Positions 45,892 through 50,913 of a stretch of 60,199 bases of DNA are shown in pieces. The notes under the pieces are model-generated. The model was not told where the DNA came from and did not search any database. It saw only the letters and a program-made list of their open reading frames with translations. The DNA lies in assembly GCA_021205095.1 (NCBI GenBank), contig JAJPYE010000042.1, positions 1 to 60,199 on the forward strand, given 5' to 3'. This stretch comes from Oscillospiraceae bacterium (GTDB taxonomy: Bacteria > Bacillota > Clostridia > Oscillospirales > Oscillospiraceae). Made by a program: the position numbers and the translations under genes. Within the stretch, counting starts at the first letter, position 1; each line of letters opens with the position of its first letter.

Positions 45892-46725
45892 ATGAAGATA
45901 ACGGAAAAGGTCATCCGGGCGTTTTCGGATCATCTGAGCCGGGAGGAGCGCGCCCCGGCCACTATAGAAAAATACACCCACGCCCTGCGGACGCTGGCGC
46001 GGTTTCTGGACGGCGGGGCCCTGACCAAGGAGGGGCTGCTGGCCTTTCGGGAGCGGCTTCAAACCGATGTGCTTCCCCAGACGGTGAACGGCTATATCTC
46101 TGCCGTCAACGCCTTTCTCATCTTTCAGAATCTGGACGGCATGAAGCTGCGCCACCTGCGGGTGCAGCGGCAGCCCTTTCGCTCGGCGGAGCGGGAGCTG
46201 ACCCGCCGGGAATATGAGCGGCTGGTGGAGACGGCCAGAGCGCAGGGGAAGGTCAGACTCCACCACATTCTGATCACCCTGGCCAGCACCGGCATACGCA
46301 TTGGGGAGCTGCCCGCCATCACGGTGAAGGCTGTGAAAAACGGCAGAGCCGTGATAAGCCTGAAAGGAAAAAACCGGGTCATTCTCATCCCCGGCGAGCT
46401 GAGGGGAAAGCTTCTGGCCTTTATCCGCCGGGAGGGCATCTCCTCCGGCCCGGTGTTCCGCACCCGCAGCGGACAGCCTGTGAACCGCTCCAACGTCCTG
46501 CACGAGATGAAGGCCCTGTGCGGGGCCGCCCGCGTCGCTCCGGAAAAGGTGTTTCCCCATAACCTGCGGCACCTGTTTGCCCAGCTTTTTTACAGCGCGG
46601 AGAAGAACCTTGCCCACCTGGCGGACGTGCTGGGCCACACCCGCATAGAGACCACCCGGCTTTATATCGCCTCCAGCGAGCGGGTTTATCAGCGCGCCAT
46701 GGGCCAACTCCACCTGGTGATATAA
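45892..46725 (+). CDS. Tyrosine recombinase (XerC/D-like), candidate DNA invertase
   Basis: The 277-residue phage-integrase-family protein has an N-terminal SAM-like core-binding domain (about 5-90, SREERAPATIEKYTHALRTL) and a catalytic domain. The catalytic residues are visible: Arg in ASTGIRIGELPA near 136, Lys in LKGKNRV, HxxR in PHNLRHLFAQ, His in LGHTRIETT and the nucleophile Tyr in RLYIASSERV near 258. It ends three bases before an 11-6-11 recombination site and 325 bases before an adhesin gene, so it probably inverts the segment between them. GCAGGAGG precedes ATG 45892. TATAAT at 45825-45830 may be its -10. Confidence 0.88.
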   Translation: MKITEKVIRAFSDHLSREERAPATIEKYTHALRTLARFLDGGALTKEGLLAFRERLQTDVLPQTVNGYISAVNAFLIFQNLDGMKLRHLRVQRQPFRSAERELTRREYERLVETARAQGKVRLHHILITLASTGIRIGELPAITVKAVKNGRAVISLKGKNRVILIPGELRGKLLAFIRREGISSGPVFRTRSGQPVNRSNVLHEMKALCGAARVAPEKVFPHNLRHLFAQLFYSAEKNLAHLADVLGHTRIETTRLYIASSERVYQRAMGQLHLVI

Positions 46726-46728
46726 AAA

Positions 46729-46756
46729 TCACCTCAGAACAATCATTCTGAGGTGA
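46729..46756 (+). repeat. Left recombination site (11-6-11, dif-like) of an invertible segment
   Basis: The arms TCACCTCAGAA (46729-46739) and TTCTGAGGTGA (46746-46756) are perfect inverted repeats around core CAATCA (46740-46745), the geometry of tyrosine-recombinase crossover sites. Compared in inverse orientation, 24 of 28 bases match the right site and the 16 central bases are identical. On the minus strand the stem is followed by TTTTTATA, so it also makes a rho-independent terminator. Confidence 0.8.
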
Positions 46757-46991
46757 AAATCGTATAAAGTAAACATTTTGCCCACTATTGAATGACTTGA
46801 GTATACCACGCTAGCTAGTGAAAATCAATAATTAATCACAAAAAATAAATTAATGCCAACGAAAGGCGCGACGAAAAGGATCTGCTTGTTAGACAAAAAA
46901 GCAGACCCTCGCTTGTGTTGCGAGAAAATCCCAACATTCTGCCCTTTTGTGCTGATTTTTTAGGTTCGGTAAAAGGACAGCAGAAAGGAAT
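46757..46991. other. Predicted invertible promoter segment (235 bp)
   Basis: This AT-rich, non-coding segment is bounded by inverted 28-bp sites. It carries one good promoter, on the minus strand at 46800-46828, pointing away from the adhesin. Two small hairpins, TCTGCTT/AAGCAGA (46881-46905) and CTCGC/GCGAG (46908-46924), lie behind it. On the plus strand only weak promoter-like sequences are seen (TTGCCC-18-TATACC near 46780, TTGTGC-17-TAAAAG near 46948), so the adhesin appears OFF in this orientation. Confidence 0.7.
46800..46828 (-). promoter_or_regulatory. Promoter inside the invertible segment
   Basis: On the minus strand: TTGATT (46823-46828), 17-bp spacer, TATACT (46800-46805), with a TG extension (TGGTATACT). 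After inversion it would occupy about 46920-46948 on the plus strand, giving the adhesin mRNA a leader of about 95 bases. Confidence 0.75.
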
Positions 46992-47019
46992 TTACAACAG
47001 AATGATTGTTCTGTGGTGA
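46992..47019 (+). repeat. Right recombination site of the invertible segment
   Basis: The arms TTACAACAGAA (46992-47002) and TTCTGTGGTGA (47009-47019) flank core TGATTG (47003-47008), the exact reverse complement of the left core. It lies 31 bases upstream of the adhesin ATG. No T-run follows, so unlike the left site it should not terminate transcription heading for the adhesin. Confidence 0.8.
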
Positions 47020-47050
47020 AACGCCAATGCTTTAAAGGAGAGCAAAGCCG

Positions 47051-50000
47051 ATGAAAAAGCGTATTATAAGCCTTGTCCTTCTGCTGGCGCTGACCTTGTC
47101 CCTGGGCGGACTTTCGACGGCGTTTGCGGAGGAAGTGACGGGCCAGACGACCGACGAGGTCGTTGCGTCCGCCAGGGAGACGGAAGCTCCCGTTGCGTCG
47201 GAGACCCCGGAGGAGACGGACTCCGACGAGACTGAGGAACCCGTTGAGGAGGCGGACTCCGGCGAAGCCGAGGAACCCGCCGAGGAGGTGGAACTCGACG
47301 AGACCGAGGAACCCGAAGAATCCCCGGAGGCAACAACGGAGGCGGCGTCAGAGGACGATGAGGAGGAAGAGATCGTCTCCGATGTCGGGGAAGTCGTGGT
47401 TTCCTCCAATGCCCTGATGGCTGTTGCAAGTGTGGCAGCGACTGCCGAGGAAGTGCAGGCGCTGATCGACGCCCTGCCCACGGCGGCGGAGTATGCGGAA
47501 CTGGACTTGGATGCGCAGAACGAAGCCTATGACCTGATTCAAGAAGCCAGCGAAGCCTATGACGCCCTCTCCGAGGAGGAACAGGCAGCGGTGGATGATT
47601 CCAGGCTGGATGAGCTGTTCGCCTATCTCAACGGGGAAACTTCGACGATAGATGGAGATGCGGTCGCGCAGATTGGGGAGGAGACGTATGACACCCTTCA
47701 GGCCGCCTTGGATGCGGCGGAATCGGGCGATACCGTCACGCTGCTGGCCAATATTGAGGTAAACTGCTCAACAGCGGATTATGCGAAGATTAATAAGAGC
47801 GTTACGATAGACTTGGGGAACCATACAATCACCGTTACAGGCACGAGCGGATCCTATGCACTGTTTCGTGTGACTTCCTCCGGGAAGGTAACGGTAAAGA
47901 ACGGCACTGTTGAAGGAATGGCGGGCAGCAGCAAAGCAAAATGTTTTGTAATTTATGCAGAAGGAACTGCGGACAGTGAGAGAGACATAGCGCTGGAGAA
48001 TGTTACGATTCAGAACTTTGCATCTGCTACCAGTACAAACTCAGTGAATGGAACGGTATATGTGAAATATGGCAGCTTCTCTGCCACAGTCTGTAAGTTT
48101 TTGAACAATGACTGCCGTGGTTTCCATGTGGATTGTCAAAATGTTGGTACTGTGGTTGTTAATGGATGCACTGTGAGTGGCAACAGCGTTTCTGCATATG
48201 CCTATGGCGTTGGATTTTATGTTGTGCGTGCAAAATCCGTTGAAATAAAAGACAGCATTATCGATAATAATGCTGGCACCTATTTGATGTTCGGCGGTGG
48301 CTTTGCTGTTTTAGAATCATCGTCGGTCAATATAGTGAAAAACCAGATCTGTAAAAACACAAGCAATCGCTACGGGGGCGGAATTCTTCTAATGAATCTG
48401 TCTGGGAATTTGCTTATACAAGGCAATACGATTACCGAGAACAGCGGTGTAGTGTATGGCGGCGGTGTATGCATAATGAATACCGATGATTCGAGTGATT
48501 TAGGCAGCGTAACCGTGAGCGAAAATACCATTTCCAATAACACTGTGACGGATTATAACAGCCGAGAGCAACTCGGTATTTCCAGAGGCGGCGGTTTGCT
48601 GCTGTGGGATACAAATCAGACGCATACCAACAGCGGAAACTACGTGTTCGAGAAAAATACAATATCCAACAACACAGCGGAAACGCCCACCTATACAGCC
48701 AAAAACGGCACAAGTCGGGGCGGAGGACTCAGTTTGTGCGTTTATGACACGAGCCGGGAAATTCAAATATTGTCTGGCAGCATTACTGGAAACTCTGCGG
48801 ATTGGGGCGGAGGTATTGATTATACCTACAAGGACAGTACGGTGCTGCGTCTATACAACGCCCTGGTGACAGGAAATACCGCGCCCAGAGGCGGCGGCAT
48901 ATGGGCTTGTCCAACTTCGCAAACCACCATGTATGTAACGTTTGGGGGCGCGATTTACAAGAACACCTCAACAGGCTCTTTCGTTTATAGTAGCGCGACA
49001 TTTTCTGCTACGGGCTGTGATATACGTTTTGAGGGAAATGATTCGGATATGCTAGACTATATTAACAGCTATGAAGGGGAAGCATATGCCAGCGTCGTTT
49101 CCCGCGCTCTTGGAGGCGTTTTGCTCGATTGGTACAGCGATGAGACAGAGGCTCGCTATTCTGATGGAGATACAGCAGTCAATATATCGGATTATCAGAA
49201 CCGAATTACTTCTTTTGGATTGTATGCAGGACTGAGTGAGTACGGCATTGAGGTGGCGAAGGATGCGGCTGCGTTGATTATTTCCGGCAATACAGCCACT
49301 ATGCTTGGCGGTGCCATTGCGTCCAACAGCGAGGTTATCTTTGGAGAAGAAGGAGCGACCTCCGTTGCCGTCACCAAGGAATGGGCGACCAGCGATGGGT
49401 CGGAGCTTGACGAGGATTTGCTTCCCGAATCTGTCACCGTGCAGTTGGTGCGTGTGGACAGCGAGGAGAACGAGGTAAATCTGGAATCTGTGGAGCTGAC
49501 GGCGGCTAACGGCTGGAGCTACACCTTTGAGGAGCTGCCGACAAACTACACTTATAAAGTGGTAGAAACCTCCGAAGGCGATTATACGTCCGCCCAGTCC
49601 GAGATGACCAAGGATGCGGACGGGAATTATTCGGTGACAATCACTAATACGATTGAGCTGACGGACGTCACCGTAACTAAGACCTGGGACGACGCAGACG
49701 ACCAGGACGGCAAGCGGCCTGAGAGCGTTACGGTTCGGCTGCTGGCAGGCGGCGAGGAAGTGGAGAACGCTGAACTCACCGAGGAGAACGGCTGGACGTA
49801 TGCGTTCACCAGCCTGCCCAAGTATGAAAACGGCGAGGAGATCGAATACACCGTCACGGAGGACGCGGTGACGGACTATTCCACCACCTATGACGGGTAT
49901 GCAATCACCAACAGCTACACCCCCGGCCAGGTCAGCGTCACTGTGACCAAGGCGTGGGACGACGCAGACGATCAGGACGGCCTTCGGCCTGAAAGCGTCA

Positions 50001-50527
50001 CCGTGACGTTGGTGAAAAACGGCGAGGCCACGGAGCAGACTGTGACCCTGAACGCTGAGAACAACTGGACGGCCAGCTTCACTGCTCTGGATGAGTATAC
50101 AGGCGGGGAGAAGAATGTCTATACTGTCCAGGAGGCGGCCACAGAGGGCTATACCAGCGTCGTGACCGGGGACGCGGCCACGGGCTTTGTGATCACCAAC
50201 ACCCACACCCCGACGGTGACGCCTCCCCCGGAGGAGACCGAGACGCCGGAGGAGTCCACAACGCCGACGGAGACCGAAACCCCGGAGGAGTCCACAACGC
50301 CTACAGAGACCGAGACACCGACCGAGACTGAGACGCCCACGGAGTCCGCAACACCCACTGACCCGGACGCGACCGCCTCAACCGTGGTGATCACCCCTGT
50401 TCCCACGACCACGGCCACTTCCCCGGATACGGGAGACGACAGCAACGCCCTGCTGTGGCTGGTTCTGCTGCTCCTGTGCGCCGGCGGCGCTGCGGCAGTG
50501 CTGGTGGTAAGGAAACGGAAGGAATAA
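47051..50527 (+). CDS. Cell-wall-anchored adhesin: beta-helix, three CnaB repeats, SPDTG sorting signal
   Basis: The 1158-residue surface protein has a signal peptide (cleavage after AFA, residue 26) and an acidic Glu/Pro/Thr stalk (about 27-115). A short helical module follows (EEVQALIDALPTAAEYAELD, about 135-195), then a right-handed beta-helix-like passenger (about 205-765) with Asn/Gly turn repeats. Three CnaB-type repeats start near 771, 873 and 960; the last two share TW/AWDDADDQDG. A T-P-E-rich wall-spanning linker (about 1057-1118) leads to SPDTG (1124-1128), a membrane helix and the basic tail RKRKE. Sortase anchoring is expected. AAAGGAG precedes the ATG. The passenger DNA (about 47750-49350) is clearly more AT-rich than its surroundings, suggesting transfer or domain exchange. 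Confidence 0.88.
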   Translation: MKKRIISLVLLLALTLSLGGLSTAFAEEVTGQTTDEVVASARETEAPVASETPEETDSDETEEPVEEADSGEAEEPAEEVELDETEEPEESPEATTEAASEDDEEEEIVSDVGEVVVSSNALMAVASVAATAEEVQALIDALPTAAEYAELDLDAQNEAYDLIQEASEAYDALSEEEQAAVDDSRLDELFAYLNGETSTIDGDAVAQIGEETYDTLQAALDAAESGDTVTLLANIEVNCSTADYAKINKSVTIDLGNHTITVTGTSGSYALFRVTSSGKVTVKNGTVEGMAGSSKAKCFVIYAEGTADSERDIALENVTIQNFASATSTNSVNGTVYVKYGSFSATVCKFLNNDCRGFHVDCQNVGTVVVNGCTVSGNSVSAYAYGVGFYVVRAKSVEIKDSIIDNNAGTYLMFGGGFAVLESSSVNIVKNQICKNTSNRYGGGILLMNLSGNLLIQGNTITENSGVVYGGGVCIMNTDDSSDLGSVTVSENTISNNTVTDYNSREQLGISRGGGLLLWDTNQTHTNSGNYVFEKNTISNNTAETPTYTAKNGTSRGGGLSLCVYDTSREIQILSGSITGNSADWGGGIDYTYKDSTVLRLYNALVTGNTAPRGGGIWACPTSQTTMYVTFGGAIYKNTSTGSFVYSSATFSATGCDIRFEGNDSDMLDYINSYEGEAYASVVSRALGGVLLDWYSDETEARYSDGDTAVNISDYQNRITSFGLYAGLSEYGIEVAKDAAALIISGNTATMLGGAIASNSEVIFGEEGATSVAVTKEWATSDGSELDEDLLPESVTVQLVRVDSEENEVNLESVELTAANGWSYTFEELPTNYTYKVVETSEGDYTSAQSEMTKDADGNYSVTITNTIELTDVTVTKTWDDADDQDGKRPESVTVRLLAGGEEVENAELTEENGWTYAFTSLPKYENGEEIEYTVTEDAVTDYSTTYDGYAITNSYTPGQVSVTVTKAWDDADDQDGLRPESVTVTLVKNGEATEQTVTLNAENNWTASFTALDEYTGGEKNVYTVQEAATEGYTSVVTGDAATGFVITNTHTPTVTPPPEETETPEESTTPTETETPEESTTPTETETPTETETPTESATPTDPDATASTVVITPVPTTTATSPDTGDDSNALLWLVLLLLCAGGAAAVLVVRKRKE

Positions 50528-50529
50528 AC

Positions 50530-50913
50530 GTGACGGAGTCAGTTTCCTATGAAAAGCTTCTGACCGATTTGCAGACGGTCAGCGCTGCGCTGACCGAAAC
50601 CGACCCCGCCTCTGCGGGGCCGGTGGCGGAGGCCGCGGAGATCATCCCCGTCCTGACCAGCCGTATTACCGAGCTGGAAGAGAAGCTGGCCGCCGTGGAG
50701 CAGCAGATCCAGCGGCGCAAGGAGCGTCAGCATGAGGGCATCGTGGCCGCCCAGGAGCGGGGCGTAGCCTTCGGACGGCCCCGGATGCCCATGCCGGATA
50801 ATTTTGAAGAGGTGAAAAACCTCTGGTTCACCCGGCAAATATCCTCCCGCGAGGGAGCCAGAAGACTGGGCGTCAGCCAGGACACGTTCCTCCGCTGGTG
50901 CGGAAGAAGATAA
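50530..50913 (+). CDS. Resolvase-derived HTH protein without catalytic domain
   Basis: In this 127-residue protein, residues 1-55 are helical with a heptad-like stretch (ITELEEKLAAVEQQIQRRKE, about 45-65). The C-terminal part reads as the end of a serine resolvase: RQHEGIVAAQERGVAFGRPR, then MPDNFEEVKNLWFTRQISSR and the HTH EGARRLGVSQDTFLRWCGRR. The catalytic Ser domain is absent. GTG 50530 lies two bases after the adhesin stop with GGAAGGA upstream, so it is co-expressed with the adhesin. It may bind recombination-like sites or regulate the cassette; that is inference. Confidence 0.72.
   Translation: MTESVSYEKLLTDLQTVSAALTETDPASAGPVAEAAEIIPVLTSRITELEEKLAAVEQQIQRRKERQHEGIVAAQERGVAFGRPRMPMPDNFEEVKNLWFTRQISSREGARRLGVSQDTFLRWCGRR

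Follow-up and report, generated by a model that had tools for sequence, protein, structure and literature searches.

The locus

The window, a stretch of 60,199 bases, comes from what is probably an Oscillospiraceae bacterium of the gut. It holds a tyrosine recombinase gene followed on the same strand by the gene for a cell-wall adhesin, and the features of interest lie in and around the short region between the two.

45892–46725, plus strand: tyrosine recombinase, probable invertase (277 aa; Pfam Phage_integrase, E 5.9e-20)
46719–46756, minus strand: left site as a putative intrinsic terminator facing the OFF promoter (12-bp stem, then TTTTTATATC)
46729–46756, plus strand: left recombination site (11-6-11 layout, core CAATCA; counterparts lie in the same place behind related recombinases)
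46757–46991, no strand: predicted invertible segment between the sites (235 bp; the corresponding segments of relatives occur in opposite orientations)
46800–46805, minus strand: predicted promoter −10 element TATACT, with TG directly before it (extended −10) and a spacer of 17
46823–46828, minus strand: predicted promoter −35 element TTGATT (sigma-70 scan; same strand and side in L046, L047 and L050)
46877–46909, minus strand: hairpin on the upstream side of the promoter, weakly conserved among four aligned adhesin-type loci
46992–47019, minus strand: right recombination site (core TGATTG on the plus strand)
47034–47040, plus strand: candidate, and likely, ribosome-binding site AAAGGAG of the adhesin (by eye)
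47051–50527, plus strand: adhesin (1158 aa; Pfam Cna_B, E 6e-65, and Beta_helix, E 2.4e-10)

A preliminary description of this DNA had an intact tyrosine recombinase gene ending three bases 5' of the left site, and the position of the stop codon bears this out. All six catalytic residues (R136, K160, H223, R226, H249 and Y258) are in place, and in an alignment of 76 recombinases that includes the one in the window, each of the six columns holds the same residue in 68 to 76 sequences. The closest NCBIfam models are of the XerA and XerD types; the recombinase falls well under their cut-offs, with 113 bits for the best, XerA-like model against a cut-off of 220. The adhesin starts with an ATG at 47051, 31 bases 3' of the right site as described, and its reading frame is open in the window. 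The protein has a signal-peptide-like start, a right-handed beta helix, three Cna_B stretches and a tail composed of SPDTG, a hydrophobic stretch and basic residues, which we take to be a sortase-type anchor. At the 3' side of the adhesin, a small protein (50455–50913, plus strand) has a C-terminal part that by eye resembles the DNA-binding end of a serine recombinase; it has no Pfam or NCBIfam match at E 0.001.

Sites, predicted promoter and putative terminator

The two inverted 28-bp sites proved exact to the base at the positions first given, with a match at 24 of 28 positions, and their 6-bp cores, read as reverse complements, are identical. The arms are palindromic at 11 of 11 positions in the left site and at 9 of 11 in the right. 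A search of the 60,199-base window for inverted pairs of 28-mers matching at 22 or more positions, with starts 100 to 600 bases apart, returned seven rows, all of them this pair and its one-base shifts. With up to three mismatches allowed, the site pattern had no match in 100 dinucleotide shuffles of the window, and the source genome contained no such site beyond the pair itself. The layout is that of a promoter inverton: inverted repeats bound a short intergenic segment between the recombinase gene and the adhesin gene, a tyrosine recombinase with an intact active site adjoins it, and a promoter within the segment, identified by consensus match only, could face the gene once inverted.

The single good promoter that had been noted, TTGATT-17-TATACT pointing away from the adhesin, was found on the minus strand at 46828–46800. 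It is the sole site in a sigma-70 scan of 46650–47100; since shuffles give 0.7 sites per region on average, a single match is weak evidence when taken alone. With a hand-entered promoter matrix, it scores 13.8, versus 7.4 for the best site on the opposite strand. Inversion of the segment would give the adhesin an mRNA leader recomputed as about 96 bases, close to the original figure of about 95.

The left site may have a second function. Its RNA fold has an energy of −18.4 kcal/mol (z −5.45). The right site also folds (−11.5 kcal/mol, z −2.63), without a T run after it. A T run follows the left site and not the right one, so the pair is asymmetric in the way that a switch needs. The same asymmetry is seen across 76 related loci (sampled as described below), where at least five T among the eight bases outward of a 24-base site occur at 29 left sites and no right site, and the inward counts are 0 and 3, respectively. 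In 47 of the 76 loci the left site lacks the T run, and the left bases are at some loci shared with the end of the recombinase gene. The asymmetry suggests that OFF transcripts could stop before running antisense into the recombinase gene, while ON transcripts could pass. The hairpin at 46877–46909 is possibly a further terminator, one that would block read-through when the switch is ON.

Related loci

How widespread is this arrangement? In the genome_contigs collection, 12 loci matched, 11 of them at 44–49% identity and mostly titled Oscillospiraceae or other Clostridia. Counting the source genome, a related recombinase occurs in 23 of 35 genomes of the genus (E ≤ 1e-30), one of which has 19 matches, some partial or more distant, and, in a family-wide sample (E ≤ 1e-50), in 79 of 300 genomes, representing 43 of 106 genera. 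We took 120 stretches around recombinase genes, together with the genome_contigs loci and 12 more, one of which repeats L047. L016 (25% identical) and L011 (a duplicate of L063) were left out, and L001–L004 and L017–L045 were replaced by longer stretches.

A site pair scoring at least 42 was found in 82 of 131 loci, window included (45 of 71 in the first set and 37 of 60 in the family set), and the top score in 156 mononucleotide-shuffled regions, drawn from the family set only, was 35. The search required an exact core in the family set and weighted it in the first set, where exact cores were kept afterwards; identity of left and right cores in the relatives is therefore not a result. Removal of near-identical loci (L056, L080, L099, L103, L156 and L170) reduced the 82 to 76 non-redundant ones. 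Among the 49 loci below the threshold, short sequence behind the gene (under 350 bases) may account for 14 and does not account for the other 35; in the family set, the pair is missed in 17 of the 54 loci for which 400 bases or more are available there, several of them with a left palindrome visible by eye. The sub-threshold loci include L013, L057, L063, L064, L072, L073, L086 and L096, which are nonetheless cited here for inversions or weaker sites.

The promoter, too, recurs, as judged with the hand-entered matrix. Over the 76 segments the best score averages 13.3; the weaker strand of these segments averages 7.8, and shuffled segments average 8.9 on their better strand. A promoter scoring at least 12 is predicted in 60 of 76 segments versus 4% of shuffled ones. 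It points away from the gene (OFF) in 52 loci and towards it (ON) in 14, with 10 undecided; an earlier tally of 48 loci under another site definition gave 32 OFF, 11 ON and 5 undecided. Each of the four adhesin-type loci that have a segment (L046, L047, L050 and that of the window) reads as OFF, and the promoters occupy the same stretch when the four are aligned.

Are the sites conserved where recombinase and adhesin occur together? A lack of such conservation would speak against a switch, and the reverse was found: four of five such loci keep paired sites, and the fifth, L048, which has this type of recombinase and adhesin start, retains one recombined site. L049 (G005), whose recombinase is 63% identical to that in the window, has neither site pair nor adhesin and carries other reading frames directly behind the gene. 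Five loci (L073, L076, L081, L082 and L104) have three sites behind the recombinase rather than two, which would allow inversion and perhaps a short deletion.

Inversion and excision in relatives

Comparison of the 450 bases behind each recombinase (67 loci, one duplicate included) turned up 91 matches of more than 45 bases on opposite strands; 27 span at least 200 bases, and none of the 91 involves the window. Close comparison of 11 locus pairs showed eight in which the two segments are inverted relative to each other, the breakpoints being at the sites: L100/L102, L074/L101, L052/L101, L088/L096, L097/L098, L063/L086, L013/L063 and L073/L076, with L101 and L063 each counted in two pairs. In L100/L102 the upstream flanks are 90% and the downstream flanks 93% identical, the inverted segment (14–304 vs 304–14) is 91% identical, and the boundaries are the sites. 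L074 and L101, whose segments are mutually inverted, are 98.7% identical in the 152 bases that follow the right site. In L073/L076, 287 inverted bases are 99.7% identical and a third site near +81 was used; the right flank of L073 is unseen because its contig ends at the right site. L097 and L098 come from the same genome and have different genes behind the switch, with a right-flank match of 47 bases only. The other three pairs comprise a deletion (L047/L048), a pair in the same orientation (L047/L050), and L046 with the window, whose flanks align and whose segments do not.

Where does strand exchange take place? In L088/L096 and L074/L101 the inner half-sites are exchanged at the core and the outer half-sites are unchanged, which places the crossover in the 6-bp core. 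Excision is evident in L048 when it is set against L047, which has the same adhesin start: the segment is lost, the flanks are 93% and 91% identical, and the single hybrid site consists of the left half and core of the L047 left site joined to the right half of the L047 right site. In these alignments, inversion and excision at such sites are seen in relatives; the source locus itself would presumably flip as well. Compared by eye with its own reverse complement, the L047 core agrees at 4 of 6 positions and that of the window at 2 of 6; over the 76 loci, the number of self-complementary positions is 0 in 12, 2 in 49 and 4 in 15. Core symmetry like that of L047 would fit easier mis-synapsis, on the strength of one case. 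L157 and L198, each taken by itself, have a single palindrome between the recombinase stop and the start of the next gene and are perhaps further excised switches.

Some assembly breaks fall in the same place. Among contigs displayed because they end close behind a recombinase gene, nine stop within the left site or at its last base (L006, L007 (the same contig as L195), L055, L058, L140, L168, L194, L196 and L197). In L058 the last base of the core is the end of the contig; in L007 and L197, which lack the partner site, an imperfect or half palindrome was identified by eye as the site. L014, L015, L165, L167 and L177 end 55 to 195 bases on, away from a site, and L069, L077 and L090 further still. 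Over the genus and family hits, five full-length minus-strand genes start within 30 bases of contig base 1, which is their downstream side, and no full-length plus-strand gene does so on its upstream side. There are counter-cases: two minus-strand hits in the genus are cut inside the gene at the downstream end, and one plus-strand hit in the family at the other. Mixed orientations in the sequenced population would explain breaks at the site, and repeats explain them as well; G025, for example, holds near-identical copies.

What is the best explanation?

The reading that we favour, with a probability of roughly 88%, is that a self-contained, recombinase-driven invertible promoter phase-varies the cell-wall adhesin and is OFF in this assembly. 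The recombinase (45892–46725) would bind the palindromic arms at both sites, and strand exchange within the 6-bp CAATCA core would flip the 235-bp segment. In the orientation found in this assembly, the promoter would fire leftwards and its transcript would stop at the intrinsic terminator in the left site; the recombinase gene would be spared antisense reading because the OFF transcript ends there. In the inverted state, transcription of the adhesin would start from the promoter and pass the right site, where there is no T run, within a leader of about 96 bases. Occasional misaligned synapsis would excise the segment and leave the gene without a promoter. From sequence, we infer the cognate role of the recombinase, the activity of the promoter, the terminator role and the function of the adhesin. 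The earlier proposal of a phase-variation switch in its OFF state gains support from the paired sites, oppositely oriented segments, core-swapped half-sites and one excised derivative found in relatives. The predicted inverted junction of the window had no match in a scan of the viral_contigs collection.

Other explanations can be set beside the favoured one. An improbable one is that the switch is fixed or decayed and no longer flips in the source species, with the adhesin locked OFF. In its favour are the OFF state of every one of the four adhesin-type loci that have a segment, the excised L048 as an instance of locking, and the partial loss of symmetry in the right site. Against this, the recombinase is intact with its catalytic residues kept, the core is the same in both sites and the left palindrome is perfect, and the promoter and the open adhesin frame have been retained. 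Four OFF loci in succession are also unsurprising given the 52 OFF, 14 ON and 10 undecided across the 76. Slightly less credible is inversion in trans by another recombinase, with the neighbouring one as a linked passenger. Three other, weaker matches to tyrosine recombinases are present in the source genome, and according to the excerpted text of PMC2784873, RecV of C. difficile works away from its switch; against that, recombinase and site pair co-occur across many genomes and genera, the best of the three other matches appears, from its translation by eye, to lack active-site residues, and the site arms track the phylogeny of the neighbouring recombinase, though weakly. In a Mantel test, recombinase distance correlated with arm distance (r 0.28, p 0.0005) and with core distance (r 0.08, p 0.03). 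The correlation with the arms drops to r 0.11 among recombinase pairs less than 65% identical, so the pairing may reflect mere linkage.

A further reading, carrying perhaps a little less weight again, accepts that the segment flips and holds that it acts mainly by termination, in the manner of cwpV, with an outside promoter, that of the recombinase, reading through in one orientation. The excerpts of PMC2784873 report a switch whose promoter is located beyond the DNA that inverts, and both the left site and the internal hairpin look terminator-like on the minus strand; because these features face the minus strand, however, rightward reading would not be stopped in the present state, and the frequency of predicted promoters inside the segments (60 of 76 scoring at least 12) also argues against it. 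Harder still to credit is a mobile element that has the inverted pair as its ends, with the recombinase as a remnant integrase. The XerA/XerD-like sequence and the existence of excision derivatives would suit such an origin, but the segment is only 235 bp, the sites are inverted rather than direct, the recombinase lies outside them, and inversions are observed in relatives. A phage origin was considered and rejected, with one partial match (14% of the query) among 50,697 phage records; no close relative was confirmed in the viral contigs.

Relation to described switches

The phase-variation switch favoured here belongs to an already described kind, the tyrosine recombinase-linked invertible promoters of gut Clostridia treated in the excerpts of PMC11892184. 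As excerpted, that study describes inverton group 139, of which 32 of 33 members are from the class Clostridia, with a novel motif and its strongest link to tyrosine recombinase invertase group 35; the group includes gut Clostridia such as Intestinimonas butyriciproducens, and orientation shifts over culture passages are reported in Intestinimonas and Clostridium sp. D5. The source switch is probably of the same kind, likened by description rather than by inverted-repeat motif: both have a short segment (255 and 257 bp end to end in two examples named in the excerpts) and a nearby tyrosine-type recombinase. In contrast, the excerpted passages on group 139 mention no such adhesin cassette, no site acting as a terminator and no excision.

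Two better-known systems are also instructive. The phase switch of the E. coli fim genes has a tyrosine recombinase gene, for FimB or FimE, next to the invertible promoter of a surface structure. It differs from the source switch in having two recombinases rather than one and in controlling a fimbria rather than a sortase-type adhesin, and the likeness drawn here is one of layout. The fim switch is named in the excerpts of both PMC2784873 and PMC11868660. The cwpV switch of C. difficile, as described in the excerpted text of PMC2784873, is inverted by RecV between imperfect 21-bp inverted repeats 195 bp apart. It has in common with the source switch a site-specific recombinase, inverted repeats, a cell-wall protein and a host among the Clostridia; in the same excerpts, the cwpV promoter lies outside the inverted DNA and the recombinase gene elsewhere, whereas in the source switch the promoter would lie inside and the recombinase gene adjoins the site.

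Among the literature matches listed, no adhesin cassette like this one appears in titles or abstract openings. What is added here, at the level of sequence comparison, is inversion in relatives, a crossover that maps within the core, an excised form, the breadth of the cassette and an asymmetric putative terminator. What does this offer? The locus is a testable candidate for a surface-adhesin switch in a little-studied family, with predicted breakpoints, promoter and leader. Among its relatives, inverted, swapped and excised states together make up a series provided by nature that puts the crossover inside the 6-bp core. Small inversion tools for laboratory genetics might be derived from the diverse cores, each of which adjoins its own recombinase.

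A recurring cassette

The gene behind the switch, defined as the longest open frame behind the right site in 75 of the 76 switches, varies widely. The 75 frames fall into 32 BLAST clusters, some of which are perhaps spurious frames or split families. The largest contain one type of secreted protein (15 loci), proteins with zinc-ribbon-like motifs by eye (12), helicases (8; ResIII, Helicase_C and HA domains in the one member tested) and the adhesin of the window (4). The cores are similarly varied, with 54 distinct ones among the 76 loci. The idea that paralogous switches are insulated by selection for distinct cores was rejected: cores are shared within genomes in 2 of 65 pairs versus 2.19 expected, and because this equals the level with shuffled labels, such selection is unsupported.

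In eight hand-picked loci (L013, L051, L057, L063, L064, L067, L072 and L086), the protein behind the switch is itself recombinase-like, with two to three domain copies in seven of the eight. In each domain other residues stand in place of the first arginine and the first histidine, and the region with the second histidine and the tyrosine does not align. Only L067 belongs to the 76, the rest being below the site threshold. These proteins are possible phase-variable DNA-binding regulators.

A broader proposal is tentative, and we hold it more doubtful than not: that the switch is a reusable cassette made up of a recombinase, two sites and a consensus promoter, set in front of many genes of unrelated kinds throughout the family, with a left site that serves as a terminator, diverse cores that are mostly of the form T-NNNN-A, and, in some cases, inactive recombinase-like regulators under its control. 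Among the literature matches listed, a left-site terminator, diverse cores and switched inactive recombinase-like proteins are not described together. If the proposal is true, inactive recombinase-like proteins could regulate other switches in a phase-variable manner.

The source genome may contain one more arrangement of this general sort. At L002 (G000:C29), a recombinase-like protein encoded at 1435–2427 on the minus strand, by eye without active-site residues, has a 22-bp inverted pair at its start (repeats at 2349–2370 and 2514–2535), with a serine-recombinase-like gene on the other side; this is perhaps a second switch, of a different type.
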